From NCBI GenBank assembly GCA_947494675.1, contig CANLVP010000002.1:806001-870000 (forward strand): a stretch of DNA of 64,000 nt, in the 5' to 3' direction. This DNA is from an uncultured Paracoccaceae bacterium (GTDB lineage: Bacteria; Pseudomonadota; Alphaproteobacteria; Rhodobacterales; Rhodobacteraceae). The position numbers and the translations under genes were made by a program. The notes beneath the pieces are model-generated. The model made no database searches. It had not been told where the DNA came from and worked only from the letters and a program-made list of their open reading frames with translations. Positions 33,071 to 39,824 of the stretch are shown here, piece by piece; the first letter of the stretch is position 1; every line of letters starts with the position of its first letter.

Positions 33071-33140
33071 TTCTGGCTCCAACGCCCGCAAACCGGCTGC
33101 CAAATTCGGTCCGGGCCATGTCTGCACGTTGGAGTTCGCA

Positions 33141-33701
33141 ATGAACACGCTGATCAAGAACCTCGCCACGGCTGCCTTTGCACTGGTCATGGGCACCTCT
33201 GCCGCACAAGGCGCGAGCCTTTTGGCGGGTGACAACATCTCTGTCTCGTTCCTTGACGACGGCAACACCGCGTCGAACTGGAACGGCACCATCGGCGCTG
33301 GCGCGGACGTCACACCTTACGGCGCGCTCAGCATTGACCTCAACACCGGCCCGGCCGGCGACGGGTTCTCTGTCACGTCCAATGGCACCTATTGCGGGTT
33401 TGTCTGTAACGGCAGTACCGTCTCGATGCTCTTTACTGGGTTGGACTTTGGCACCGACTTCACAATCGACAACTTCGTGAACACCACCGGGCTGTCGGCC
33501 TTCACCACCGTGATCTCTGACACATCTTTCTCGATCACATGGATCGACAATTCCGGCAGCGCCAACTTCTTCCCCGGCACCGTGGCATTCTCCGGCACAT
33601 TCGGTACCGTCACACCTGTGCAAGTGCCGCTGCCCCTGCCCGCCGCAATGCTGGCCTTTGCCTGCTCTGGCCTGCTCGTGGCACGTCGCAAGCGCACCTA
33701 A
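33141..33701 (+). CDS. Secreted VPLPA-CTERM-type surface protein
   Basis: A 186-residue secreted protein. The signal peptide (MNTLIKNLATAAFALVMGTSAAQGAS) is followed by a Gly/Asn/Thr/Ser-rich beta domain with one close cysteine pair (TYCGFVCNG) and a C-terminal sorting tail: [25 protein letters not shown], i.e. motif, hydrophobic helix and basic end. Such PEP-CTERM-like tails are recognised by exosortases that transfer the protein to the surface; no exosortase gene is in the window. ATG 33141 has GGAG seven bases upstream. A CtrA-type box precedes it. The 3' end overlaps the convergent hydrolase gene by four bases. Confidence 0.87.
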   Translation: MNTLIKNLATAAFALVMGTSAAQGASLLAGDNISVSFLDDGNTASNWNGTIGAGADVTPYGALSIDLNTGPAGDGFSVTSNGTYCGFVCNGSTVSMLFTGLDFGTDFTIDNFVNTTGLSAFTTVISDTSFSITWIDNSGSANFFPGTVAFSGTFGTVTPVQVPLPLPAAMLAFACSGLLVARRKRT

Positions 33702-37160: not shown

Positions 37161-37205
37161 GGTTGTGCATTGGTTGTGCATGGTTTCTGGGTGGTTTGTG
37201 CATGG
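37161..37205 (+). repeat. Three direct repeats in the MFS-sufT gap
   Basis: GGTTGTGCAT occurs at 37161 and 37172 (11-bp spacing, one helical turn), and a one-base variant GGTTTGTGCAT at 37193. This could be a regulator site for sufT, but I do not recognise the motif. Confidence 0.5.
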
Positions 37206-37231
37206 CCGTTTTGCGCAGGCCTTACCAAACC

Positions 37232-37260
37232 TTTACGCCCCCGTCCCCAAACCCTATATG
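37232..37260 (+). promoter_or_regulatory. Possible sufT promoter
   Basis: TTTACG (37232-37237), a 17-base spacer and TATATG (37255-37260), 27 bases before the sufT ATG. The -35 is a weak match. Confidence 0.35.
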
Positions 37261-37287
37261 AATGCTCAGGAATAGCAGGATACCCCG

Positions 37288-37650
37288 ATGACCGACGCAA
37301 GCACCCCCATGGAAGGCGCCCCTTTGATCGCCCCCTCCACGACCGATCATCCGCTCTATGAGGATATCGTCAATGCCTGCCGCTCGGTCTATGACCCTGA
37401 AATCCCAGTGAATATCTACGATCTGGGCCTGATCTACACGATTGTCGTGGCCGAAGATAACGCCGTGTCCGTCATCATGACCCTGACCGCCCCGGGCTGT
37501 CCCGTCGCCGGTGAGATGCCCGGCTGGGTCGCCGACGCGATTGAGCCGCTGCCTGGCGTCAAGCAAGTCGACGTCGAAATGACATTTGAGCCACAGTGGG
37601 GCATGGACATGATGTCCGACGAAGCCCGTCTTGAACTTGGCTTTATGTAA
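37288..37650 (+). CDS. sufT: SufT-type (DUF59/MIP18) Fe-S assembly factor
   Basis: A 120-residue cytosolic protein of the MIP18 family that helps mature Fe-S proteins. The core reads VYDPEIPVNIYDLGLIYTI followed by MTLTAPGCPVAGEMPGWV, with the conserved single cysteine, and FEPQWGMDMMSDEARLELGFM at the end. SufT genes usually sit in the suf operon with sufA. Here a SatD-DUF3307 pair separates sufT from sufA (39172) while keeping the direction. A start with AGCAGGA upstream supports ATG 37288. No other suf genes are in the window upstream. Confidence 0.92.
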   Translation: MTDASTPMEGAPLIAPSTTDHPLYEDIVNACRSVYDPEIPVNIYDLGLIYTIVVAEDNAVSVIMTLTAPGCPVAGEMPGWVADAIEPLPGVKQVDVEMTFEPQWGMDMMSDEARLELGFM

Positions 37651-37702
37651 TTTTGTCAGAGCGTTACGCTGACTTCTTAACGCAATTTTGCAAATTTTAA
37701 TA

Positions 37703-37777
37703 GCAAGCCAAAATACTTGCAAATCCAAAAATCAAGCCCCTACACTTGCTTTCCAATTAGCAAGCCTTATAACTTGC
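37703..37777 (+). repeat. Three 18-bp palindromes, probable operators of the SatD gene
   Basis: GCAAGCCAAAATACTTGC (37703-37720), TCAAGCCCCTACACTTGC (37732-37749) and GCAAGCCTTATAACTTGC (37760-37777) share arms GCAAG/CTTGC with 8-base centres and start 29 and 28 bases apart. The last ends two bases before the SatD ATG. Confidence 0.75.
37718..37773 (+). promoter_or_regulatory. Promoter elements overlapping the palindromes
   Basis: TTGCAA (37718-37723), 17 bases, TACACT (37741-37746) form a good sigma-70 type promoter. Alternatively TATAAC at 37768-37773 would start the transcript on the A of the SatD ATG (leaderless), which fits the lack of a Shine-Dalgarno there; its -35 spacing is poor. 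Confidence 0.5.
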
Positions 37778-37779
37778 AC

Positions 37780-38427
37780 ATGACCAAAGCAAGCCTCTCC
37801 GCTGTCATCACCGGTGACCTCATCGCGTCTCGCAAAGCCGACGACGCCCAGATCGCACGCAGTATGAACGCCCTCCAAGGCGCTGCAATTGCTTTGAAAA
37901 TCGTCACTGGACATGATCTGCGTTTCACCCGATTTCGCGGCGACGGATGGCAAGTTTATCTGCAAAACCCCAACACCGCGCTCACCGCCACCCTGCTCAT
38001 GCTCGCCACCCTCAAAGCGACCGAAAACACCATCGAAAGCCGCTTTGCCATTGGCATAGGCCCGATCACAGCGCTGGGCGCAAACCCCCTCGCTGACGCA
38101 AGTGGTGCCGCGTTCGAAACCTCAGGTGCCACGCTGGATGACATGGGTAAAAACAAGCTCGACATCGCAGGTGTCGGCGTCACCTCATCGCAAGAGGCTA
38201 TCATAACCCTTTGCGAACACATCGCTTTTGGCTGGACTGCGCCGCAAGCGCAGGCCATCAAGCTTTGGCTCATGGCCCCGGCAGCCACTCAAGATGACAT
38301 CGCCGCACAGCTGGGCATCAGCCGCCAAGCGGTCCAACTCAGGCTCGCAGGGGCCGGAAAACCAGCTATGATGGCCGCAATAGCGGCCTTCAAGGCCCAT
38401 TCCTTTGATGCAGGACCGACCCCATGA
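37780..38427 (+). CDS. SatD family protein with C-terminal helix-turn-helix
   Basis: A 215-residue soluble protein. The N-terminus SLSAVITGDLIASRKADD and LRFTRFRGDGWQVYL match the SatD family, whose biochemical role is unknown; the F-x-G-D pattern recalls the metal-binding strand of palm-domain nucleotide cyclases, which is only a hypothesis. The C-terminal 45 residues (ATQDDIAAQLGISRQAVQLRL) form a clear helix-turn-helix, so the protein may bind DNA and could recognise the three palindromes in front of its own gene. It has no ribosome site. The stop overlaps the DUF3307 start (ATGA). This pair interrupts the sufT-sufA order. Confidence 0.82.
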   Translation: MTKASLSAVITGDLIASRKADDAQIARSMNALQGAAIALKIVTGHDLRFTRFRGDGWQVYLQNPNTALTATLLMLATLKATENTIESRFAIGIGPITALGANPLADASGAAFETSGATLDDMGKNKLDIAGVGVTSSQEAIITLCEHIAFGWTAPQAQAIKLWLMAPAATQDDIAAQLGISRQAVQLRLAGAGKPAMMAAIAAFKAHSFDAGPTP

Positions 38428-39143
38428 TCGCCACCTTCACCGCCCTGCTCTTTGCCCATGCCCTCGCGGATTTTGTGTTGCAAACCAAATGGATGGTGGA
38501 CCGCAAGCGGGAGCCGCAGATCATTCTGCTGCATGGCGTGATCGTGCTGCTGACGGCCCAGGCCGCCCTCGGCCAAGTCGCCGCATGGCAGATCATCGCC
38601 CTCGCCGCCGCACACCTCATCATCGATGCCATCAAGACCTATGGCCTGCCCCGTGGTCTCTGGCCGTTTCTGGGCGATCAAGCCGCCCATATCGCGACCA
38701 TCATGGCCGTCACACTCTACGCGCCTGACCTCTGGGCGGGTGGCATCTGGGCGAACTATACTTGGCTCCCGGCCATCTTTGCGATGGTGGCGGGGCTGAT
38801 CATAACCACCCGCGCAGGCGGCTTTGCCATCGGCTTTCTGATGGCCCCATGGTCCACCGCCGAACTGCCCCAAGGCCTGCCCAACGGCGGCGCCTTGATC
38901 GGCACGCTGGAACGGGCGCTGATCTTTCTGCTGGTCATGGTCGGCCAACCCGCTGGCATCGGCTTTCTGATCGCCGCCAAATCCGTGCTGCGCTTTGACA
39001 CCACATCCAATAACCAAGGCGCTGGCGAATACGTCATCATCGGCACGCTGGCCTCCTTTGGCTGGGCGCTCACAACCTCCTATGCCACACTGCTCTTGCT
39101 ACGACATCTGCCCCCGCTTGGAATCCTGCCCCTGACCCCCTAG
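38424..39143 (+). CDS. DUF3307 membrane protein
   Basis: A 239-residue polytopic membrane protein with about six hydrophobic segments. The DUF3307 signature is seen at the start: FTALLFAHALADFVLQTKWMVDRKR and LAAAHLIIDAIKTYG, with conserved His, Asp and Gln inside or beside the membrane (HALADFVLQ, HLIIDAIK), suggesting a possible intramembrane catalytic or transport site. Function is unknown. It is translationally coupled to the SatD gene, and SatD/DUF3307 pairs suggest that a soluble sensor works with a membrane effector (inference). Confidence 0.85.
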   Translation: MIATFTALLFAHALADFVLQTKWMVDRKREPQIILLHGVIVLLTAQAALGQVAAWQIIALAAAHLIIDAIKTYGLPRGLWPFLGDQAAHIATIMAVTLYAPDLWAGGIWANYTWLPAIFAMVAGLIITTRAGGFAIGFLMAPWSTAELPQGLPNGGALIGTLERALIFLLVMVGQPAGIGFLIAAKSVLRFDTTSNNQGAGEYVIIGTLASFGWALTTSYATLLLLRHLPPLGILPLTP

Positions 39144-39171
39144 ATTAAGGGCAACCAAAAGGATCACCCCC

Positions 39172-39534
39172 ATGTTCGGCATTCCCGGCAAACAAGCCGT
39201 ATCCATCACCGACAAGGCCGCCGCCCAAATCGCCAAGCTGATGGCCAAGGACGGCCACCAGGGCTTGCGCATTGGCGTCAAGAAAGGCGGCTGTGCGGGC
39301 ATGGAATATACGATGGACTATGTGACAGAGGTCGATCCACTGGATGAGGTCGTTGAACAGGACGGCGCGCGCGTGATGATCGCCCCCATGGCGCAGATGT
39401 TCCTCTTTGGGACAGAGATCGACTACGAGGTCAGCCTGCTGGAATCCGGCTTCAAATTCCGCAACCCCAACGTGGTTGATGCCTGCGGCTGCGGCGAGTC
39501 GATCAAGTTCAACGAAGACATTAACGCCTCATGA
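39172..39534 (+). CDS. sufA: SufA/IscA-type Fe-S carrier protein
   Basis: A 120-residue A-type carrier that holds an Fe-S cluster and passes it to apoproteins. The three conserved cysteines are in KKGGCAGMEY and DACGCGESIKF. The start ATG 39172 has AAAGGA eight bases upstream. It continues the direction of sufT and is followed by a TfoX-like gene whose ATG overlaps its stop. Clients in this window would include IspG, CysI and CysH. Confidence 0.93.
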   Translation: MFGIPGKQAVSITDKAAAQIAKLMAKDGHQGLRIGVKKGGCAGMEYTMDYVTEVDPLDEVVEQDGARVMIAPMAQMFLFGTEIDYEVSLLESGFKFRNPNVVDACGCGESIKFNEDINAS

Positions 39535-39824
39535 GCGTCTCGGACGGCGATATAGCCTTCGCCGTCGACCTCTTCTCTGACCTCGGCCACCTCACCACCC
39601 GAAAAATGTTCGGCGGCATGTGCCTCTATCATGACGGCACGGTTTTTGCGCTGATGTCGTCTGAGGGGCGGCTTTATCTCAAAACAAAAACCCCCGACAC
39701 TCTATTCGGCCAAACCACCGATCAGTTCCACAACATGCCCTATTACGCCGTGCCCGAAGACGTTCTGGATGATCCCGCGTCCGCCTGCGACGCGGCCCGC
39801 GCTGCCCTCAAAGTCCTCGTCTAG
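39531..39824 (+). CDS. TfoX N-terminal domain protein
   Basis: A 97-residue protein matching the TfoX/Sxy N-terminal domain: FSDLGHLTTRKMFGGMCLYHDGTVFALMSSEGRLYLKT. Full TfoX is a competence regulator, but stand-alone N-domain proteins in alphaproteobacteria have no proven role in competence. The ATG overlaps the sufA stop by four bases, which argues for co-expression with Fe-S assembly. Length is normal for the single-domain form. Confidence 0.85.
   Translation: MSVSDGDIAFAVDLFSDLGHLTTRKMFGGMCLYHDGTVFALMSSEGRLYLKTKTPDTLFGQTTDQFHNMPYYAVPEDVLDDPASACDAARAALKVLV

Follow-up and report, generated by a model that had tools for sequence, protein, structure and literature searches.

A phased palindrome array in front of satD–DUF3307 and SatD, a protein with a predicted cyclase fold, as its probable reader

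What reads the tandem palindromes that lie in front of satD, and what does that reader do to the two-gene operon behind them? The question is raised by a stretch of 64,000 nucleotides from an uncultured Paracoccaceae bacterium (contig CANLVP010000002.1, positions 806,001 to 870,000; hereafter the window), in which four neighbouring genes run in one direction:

37288–37650, + strand: sufT-like gene (TIGR02945 SUF_assoc), upstream neighbour of satD, from a profile match
37780–38427, + strand: satD, with an N-terminal class III cyclase/GGDEF-like palm domain and a C-terminal helix-turn-helix, from a structure model
38424–39143, + strand: gene for a DUF3307 membrane protein of 239 aa, with PF11750 at residues 5–98 followed by a second conserved half, from profile and model
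39172–39534, + strand: sufA-like gene, downstream neighbour of the DUF3307 gene, from a profile match

A preliminary description of this locus proposed a self-regulated module in which SatD is coupled to a DUF3307 membrane protein, the pair being placed between sufT and sufA. The placement holds in the window and the coupling is seen as a 4-bp overlap of the two reading frames; the self-regulation is supported by conserved sites, by covariation of a helix of SatD with those sites and by a modelled cyclase fold. The reading preferred here, which we consider probable, is that SatD is an autorepressor that acts on its own operon through the tandem palindromes, probably responds to a nucleotide and controls its membrane partner. 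An RNA element at the locus finds no support: no Rfam family matches at its gathering score within 37200–39600.

The array lies after the stop of sufT (37650) and ahead of the satD ATG (37780) and is built of palindromes of 18 bp each, to which no strand is assigned; a further half-repeat lies inside satD. All four are read directly from the sequence:

37703–37720: operator palindrome 1, GCAAG-N8-CTTGC, GCAAGCCAAAATACTTGC, exact
37732–37749: operator palindrome 2, TCAAG-N8-CTTGC, TCAAGCCCCTACACTTGC, with one left-arm mismatch
37760–37777: operator palindrome 3, GCAAG-N8-CTTGC, GCAAGCCTTATAACTTGC, exact, with the candidate -10 inside its core
37789–37806: imperfect fourth repeat, GCAAGCCTCTCCGCTGTC, left half only, inside satD, 29 bp past palindrome 3

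Three GCAAG/CTTGC repeats with 8-bp centres had been described, and all three are present, but site 2 has a left-arm mismatch that had gone unmentioned; the described geometry, with starts 29 and then 28 bp apart and the last palindrome ending two bases before the ATG, agrees with the coordinates. The left half of the fourth repeat (37789) also occurs in four of five genus-mates. Counts of single sites are uninformative: the window holds 48 with at most two mismatches, where 47.6 are expected, and the genome holds 10 exact ones against 8 for the reversed pattern, so that there is no enrichment in the first and no clear enrichment in the second. The special feature is the tandem arrangement.

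Two KCAAG-N8-CTTGM sites 26–31 bp apart were searched for in 295 Rhodobacteraceae genomes drawn evenly. The tandem pattern occurs in 20 of them, always at a pitch of 28 or 29 and, by coordinates, at satD in 19; the reversed-pattern control gives 0 in the rows listed. The array of the remaining genome (G056) is judged a chance occurrence: it falls within a transporter gene, and the 6 kb around it hold no match to SatD or DUF3307. A second measure assumes only that two palindromes with like arms lie 28 or 29 bp apart and scores them out of 20; by this motif-free caller 122 of 150 satD loci reach at least 18 upstream of the gene, compared with three of 600 shuffles, which approximately preserve dinucleotides. 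The 150 loci comprise 35 collected first, 35 later and 80 named contigs (the best 80 of 233), with the window's own locus among them; they include near-identical contigs that share a species, and some overlap species of earlier loci. The three palindromes are thus confirmed as real and conserved, one mismatch in site 2 included, and sites of this kind persist upstream of homologues across genera. Three of the contigs (L109, L122, and L124) are titled Gemmatimonadetes or Gemmatimonadales and carry a satD near the Rhodobacteraceae type with GCAAG arrays; they represent transfer or misbinned contigs.

The array is not confined to the front of satD. Segments of the gap between satD and the DUF3307 gene score at least 18 in 17 of 30 cases, compared with 0 of 240 shuffles, and this gap often holds a second array or the sole scoring one (L055, L063, L075, L083, L120, L125, L133, and L140). 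Of the 150 loci, 149 have a DUF3307-type sequence behind satD, in the same orientation; the one exception (L072) is at a contig end, and a few copies, such as L124, are cut or fragmentary. Measured from the end of satD, mechanically chosen DUF3307 starts range from 8 nt upstream to 150 nt downstream. Because some relatives have their only scoring array in the gap, it is the DUF3307 gene that seems to be the constant target, with autoregulation an optional addition.

Since the window's array sits among Fe-S assembly genes, it could in principle be read by another regulator, an Fe-S or a global one for instance, and not by SatD. We regard this as very improbable. The array stays with satD and DUF3307 away from sufT: the latter is missing upstream in 27 of 148 loci, 26 of which still have an array scoring at least 18, and the single tandem array found off satD in the 295 genomes is the one inside the transporter gene. 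A further point against a foreign reader is that the half-site follows SatD's own DNA-binding helix in independent lineages. The helix is placed by model and covariation:

38323–38352, + strand: recognition helix, residues 182–191 (RQAVQLRLAG) of SatD, in which Arg182 co-varies with the outer G of the half-site

The rule that links helix and half-site was noted from the first 35 loci, in which one position of the helix-turn-helix is Arg if the half-site is GCAAG, and Pro, Ala, Thr, or Lys if it is TCAAG; the remaining loci had not yet been fetched at that point, except that five of them had already shown their arrays, though not their helices. A locus is labelled here if it has at least one CAAG-type site at no more than one mismatch, which holds for 125 of the 149 loci whose helix could be aligned (L059 was dropped because its W motif is missing). 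Among the 125, loci with an Arg helix have G in 84 cases, mixed sites in 4 and T in none, and those with a non-Arg helix have T in 33, A in 2, G in 1 and mixed sites in 1. The later loci alone give the same picture: 97 have a palm domain less than 95% identical to the first set, 23 of these lack a CAAG-type site, and the 74 that are labelled divide into Arg with G (49) or mixed sites (3) and non-Arg with T (18), A (2), G (1), or mixed sites (1), an association with a Fisher p of 3e-14 when relatedness is ignored.

Relatedness was taken into account with a tree of the SatD palm domain plus DUF3307, which was used because a tree of the palm domain alone is too poorly resolved, with just one supported pair. 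On the combined tree, which has 97 rows after mixed-label, short, and identical rows were dropped, the helix changes 11 times and the half-site 10 times; of eight supported independent pairs seven agree with the rule, none opposes it and one shows no difference (p 0.016). The single discordant row is L118, whose G label comes from one weak upstream match and was kept; its satD–DUF3307 gap has ACAGG-like repeats. Both half-site types occur together in the mixed arrays of L103 (Arg) and of L128 and L142 (Pro), and L011, with an Arg helix and TCAAG-type sites upstream, is counted among the mixed arrays as well. As half-site changes track the helix of SatD, SatD itself very probably binds the array.

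Three further helix classes were recognised after the fact. A Lys-variant helix (GKSRQ) goes with GCAAC, GCATC, or GCACC in seven of seven loci, and these (L049, L051, L064, L070, L076, L077, and L082) have a pitch of 30, not 28 or 29. Replacement of the neighbouring Gln by Pro goes with GAAAG in two of two loci, one of them below the score line. Where position 182 is Gln, 10 of 14 loci score, with ACAGG, TCAAG, ACAAG, ACAGC, or ACAAA as half-sites.

If SatD is the reader, the position of the array relative to the promoter bears on what binding would do. Two candidate elements, 16 bp apart, precede the gene:

37746–37751, + strand: candidate -35, TTGCTT, largely contained in the right arm of palindrome 2, from its position
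37768–37773, + strand: candidate -10, TATAAC, with which the transcript would start at or near the ATG, from its position and from enrichment in relatives

No Shine-Dalgarno sequence precedes the satD ATG in the window, in line with the first description, which had also read TATAAC as placed for a start at the ATG. A strict consensus scan does not list this TTGCTT/TATAAC pair because it requires a final T in the -10, and the promoter-like matches that it does list are on the other strand; no terminator is listed either. Among relatives, the promoter could be compared in 87 of the 150 loci, once duplicates of a start region had been removed along with loci that lacked a start or two registered sites. 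In 62 of the 87 the distance from the end of the last site to the start codon is at most 8 nt (exactly 2 nt in 33), and in 25 it is larger. A -10-like core, with at least four of six bases, is present in 27 of the 62 near last sites, compared with 3 of the 25 far ones and 12 of 141 upstream sites; Shine-Dalgarno-like words, some of them within palindromes, occur in 14 of the 62 near and 11 of the 25 far loci. These counts support, short of proof, a leaderless start covered by the operator. Promoter spacing is insufficient as the sole cause of the 28/29 pitch, since arrays before DUF3307 or with long leaders keep that pitch.

An operator that lies over the -10 or abuts the start is a layout usual for repression. 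SatD might instead be an activator whose upstream palindromes recruit polymerase, a reading to which several arrays of at least three sites reaching upstream of the promoter lend something, and which we nevertheless hold to be improbable because at many loci the gene-proximal site has a -10-like core or reaches up to the start. The autorepressor reading is retained, and we infer the following course for it. The C-terminal helix-turn-helix of SatD would bind the tandem palindromes that adjoin the protein's own operon, and the bound dimers would line up at the fixed 28/29-bp pitch. Because the array in the window overlaps both -35 and -10, binding should repress, shutting off satD together with the coupled DUF3307 gene. 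Binding of a Mg-nucleotide, or synthesis of a nucleotide, in the palm domain may tune this repression or may directly control the membrane partner.

The nucleotide part of the proposal comes from the predicted structure of SatD. In the model (pLDDT 94.4), strands and helices form a palm, behind which the C-terminus is all-helical. Comparison with nucleotide cyclases, suggested at the outset, gives 1121 PDB matches, and all 23 with E of at most 0.001 are nucleotidyl cyclases or GGDEF domains (TM 0.37–0.45 on the query), a bacterial cUMP synthase (7r65) being found among the fold matches. The similarity is modest even for the best Foldseek match, 1ybt (E 2.4e-4; TM 0.40 on the query and 0.49 on the target). 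The palm of SatD is accordingly modelled as a class III nucleotidyl cyclase/GGDEF fold. In a profile search of PDB sequences, proteins with a helix-turn-helix come out on top, and below them the Ma1120 cyclase appears at E 0.1; in this weak alignment two aspartates of SatD fall on the metal aspartates of the cyclase:

37816–37818, + strand: Asp13, the first of two putative metal ligands, invariant among the 163 proteins compared
37942–37944, + strand: Asp55 of RGDGWQ, the second of these putative ligands, likewise invariant among the 163 proteins, of which 80 were fetched with a pattern that contains Asp55 (unbiased count 83 of 83)

A transition-state Asn and Arg are typical of class III cyclase catalysis. 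Their likely place in the window's SatD reads SGATLD, Arg is found at residue 117 in 79 of 163 proteins, and no conserved Asn is present among the alignment columns viewed for the 163; cyclase chemistry of SatD stays putative because the usual Asn/Arg pair is not evident.

The name SatD, which comes from S. mutans secretion and acid tolerance genes, is weakly supported for the window's protein. The preliminary description had it as a SatD family protein that ends in a helix-turn-helix; the helix-turn-helix is borne out by the model, but Pfam SatD (PF16264) has no match in the protein at E of at most 0.1, which also sets it apart from the named family. Homology would run through a chain of relatives: among seven that were scanned, L002 (E 0.004, 17.3 bits) and L006 (E 0.016, 15.3 bits, a weak full-length match) fall below the curated cut-off of 29 bits and five have no match, and L167 reaches 22.6 bits. 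Four of the 299 genomes of a phylum sample and none of 14 control genomes have PF16264, a profile that misses the window's SatD. All four loci have a tandem pair at 28/29 pitch scoring at least 19, and in other Proteobacteria PF16264 proteins adjoin a gene that shares at least the second half of the DUF3307 protein.

The partner itself matches PF11750 clearly (53.7 bits, cut-off 23), and its second half carries a motif, ER...AAKSVLRF...EYVIIGTL, that is common to the partners of distant SatD proteins. Its model is all-helical (pLDDT 95.0), and a fold search gives no PDB match at E of at most 0.001, the best being E 1.2. There are two kinds of DUF3307 protein, a long one adjoining satD and a short one elsewhere (frames mostly of 130–210 aa). 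The Pfam domain is present in 119 of the 295 Rhodobacteraceae genomes, compared with 65 for satD, which is also present in six of six genomes of the genus, the window's genome being counted in both sets. The window's DUF3307 protein also matches the phage family phrog_2470.

What the module is for can be approached from its surroundings. Both suf neighbours are present at 112 of 142 Rhodobacteraceae satD loci, so the position between sufT and sufA is common in the family; it is not essential, and the pair is also found on plasmids. The pair could be a housekeeping stress module for acid, envelope or Fe-S stress, linked to suf, in which SatD senses a metabolic nucleotide and adjusts the membrane protein; the prevailing suf position and the origin of the name in acid tolerance genes fit this, and the loci that lack sufT and retain the array, the accessory distribution and the annotated plasmid pairs read here, around which no suf genes are named, do not. 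We hold this role to be possible and somewhat doubtful.

SatD-like proteins occur in 16 plasmid records, and nine of these loci were read for arrays. Pairs scoring 20 at 28/29 are found in Pseudoalteromonas, Vibrio lentus, Segatella copri (Bacteroidota), Sphingomonas (an array in the gap), and Enterobacter, and the spacer differs from 8 in two of the five. Salinivibrio, P. fragi, and the E. coli and K. pneumoniae plasmids stay below 19. Among the distant loci as a whole, 9 of 13 have a pair of at least 19 at pitch 28/29, with other half-sites (L169, L172, L175, and L176 do not reach it), against a maximum of 18 in a null of simple shuffling with 12–20 shuffles per region and the Sphingomonas gap excluded. 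On the E. coli plasmid pEC34A (L175; 3.8 kb, whole) the SatD–DUF3307 pair is almost the only cargo besides Rop and MobA, and part of a 4.4-kb K. pneumoniae plasmid (L176) holds the pair and Rop. The E. coli RefSeq search gives no near-match to the pEC34A pair, and the SatD of the Enterobacter plasmid has no match in phage records.

These plasmid pairs bring in a further reading, compatible with the autorepressor and additional to it: the pair could act as a guard or a toxin-antitoxin-like defence, comparable to Panoptes and Pycsar, in which a nucleotide made or sensed by the palm keeps DUF3307 harmless and interference with it frees the protein. The cyclase fold with its match to the cUMP synthase, the two conserved aspartates, the accessory distribution in Rhodobacteraceae and the nearly sole-cargo plasmid are in keeping with this. 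On a Sphingomonas plasmid (L177) the pair lies beside GajA, GajB, ThsB, PycTM, and PycC, and on the Enterobacter plasmid it lies about 2 kb from GajA and GajB; the presence on plasmids, twice near Gabija, makes a Panoptes-like guard role plausible. Gabija genes are nevertheless found at just two of the seven plasmid loci with wide flanks, an uncontrolled count in which chosen proteins were profile-scanned at the two Gabija loci and the other five were judged by annotated names. The other wide-flank loci include one with an Rpn-family protein, a P. fragi plasmid with a RelE/ParE toxin and two ordinary-looking Salinivibrio loci. The Sphingomonas locus is a dense defence island, with Gabija, a ThsB-like TIR protein, SatD–DUF3307, and Pycsar with an E2-associated gene.

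Against the PADLOC defence profiles, neither SatD nor DUF3307 gives a meaningful match: the window's pair gives only mad1 at E 0.036, over the helix-turn-helix, and the Pycsar profiles (PycC and PycTM) match neither SatD nor DUF3307 in the window's pair or the Sphingomonas pair. The absence of an evident cyclase-typical Asn and Arg in the window's protein and the one housekeeping position held by most Rhodobacteraceae pairs also speak against a guard. For S. pyogenes, satD is reported to be an essential gene although just 178 of 249 genomes carry it (PMC11323703), which would be expected if SatD restrains something harmful. On this evidence a guard role is conceivable, and we put it forward tentatively. 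The broader proposal, that SatD is at once transcription factor and nucleotide enzyme, that a nucleotide made or read by its palm sets the occupancy of the array and holds DUF3307 inactive, and that the pair is an unrecognised mobile guard system in several bacterial groups, is unlikely as a whole.

Compared by fold and operon logic, Panoptes (OptS, an mCpol, with OptE) is the nearest functional analogue of SatD–DUF3307. Both have a small palm-fold protein beside a membrane protein, and Asp13 and Asp55 of SatD would correspond to the aspartates Asp6 and Asp57 of KpOptS (PMC12657218); in Panoptes a cyclic dinucleotide made by mCpol restrains the membrane effector (PMC12657218; PMC12657230). SatD differs in its DNA-binding domain and operator array, and its partner is a multi-helix DUF3307 protein. 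Pycsar (PycC and PycTM) likewise sets a class III cyclase fold beside a membrane protein, and one Pycsar set neighbours a SatD–DUF3307 pair, but SatD has a helix-turn-helix and, with DUF3307, is missed by the Pycsar profiles. Autorepressing toxin-antitoxin operons are small, have a DNA-binding first gene and carry repeated palindromes over the promoter. The satD operon resembles them in these points and in its accessory distribution, and is unlike them in the predicted cyclase fold of its regulator.

Among the titles, abstract openings and passages covered by a literature search, with subscription papers mostly outside it, there is no description of a SatD operator or a SatD fold, and DUF3307 turns up in 1 of the 5.39 million papers searched. 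Mentions of streptococcal satD (PMC10210942; PMC5786311) and the abstract on Clover (PMC12265719) have no direct bearing on the mechanism. Two families without an assigned function become a testable unit of regulator, target and partner: its DNA code is predicted (half-site bases against residue 182 and those beside it), its array geometry is fixed, and it has a putative nucleotide site. If the nucleotide link is true, the pair joins the few modules of a palm-fold protein and a membrane protein, such as Panoptes, and adds transcriptional control to them. Elsewhere in the window, 33129–33701 encodes a secreted-looking protein, the C-terminus of which we take to resemble a VPLPA-CTERM sorting signal.
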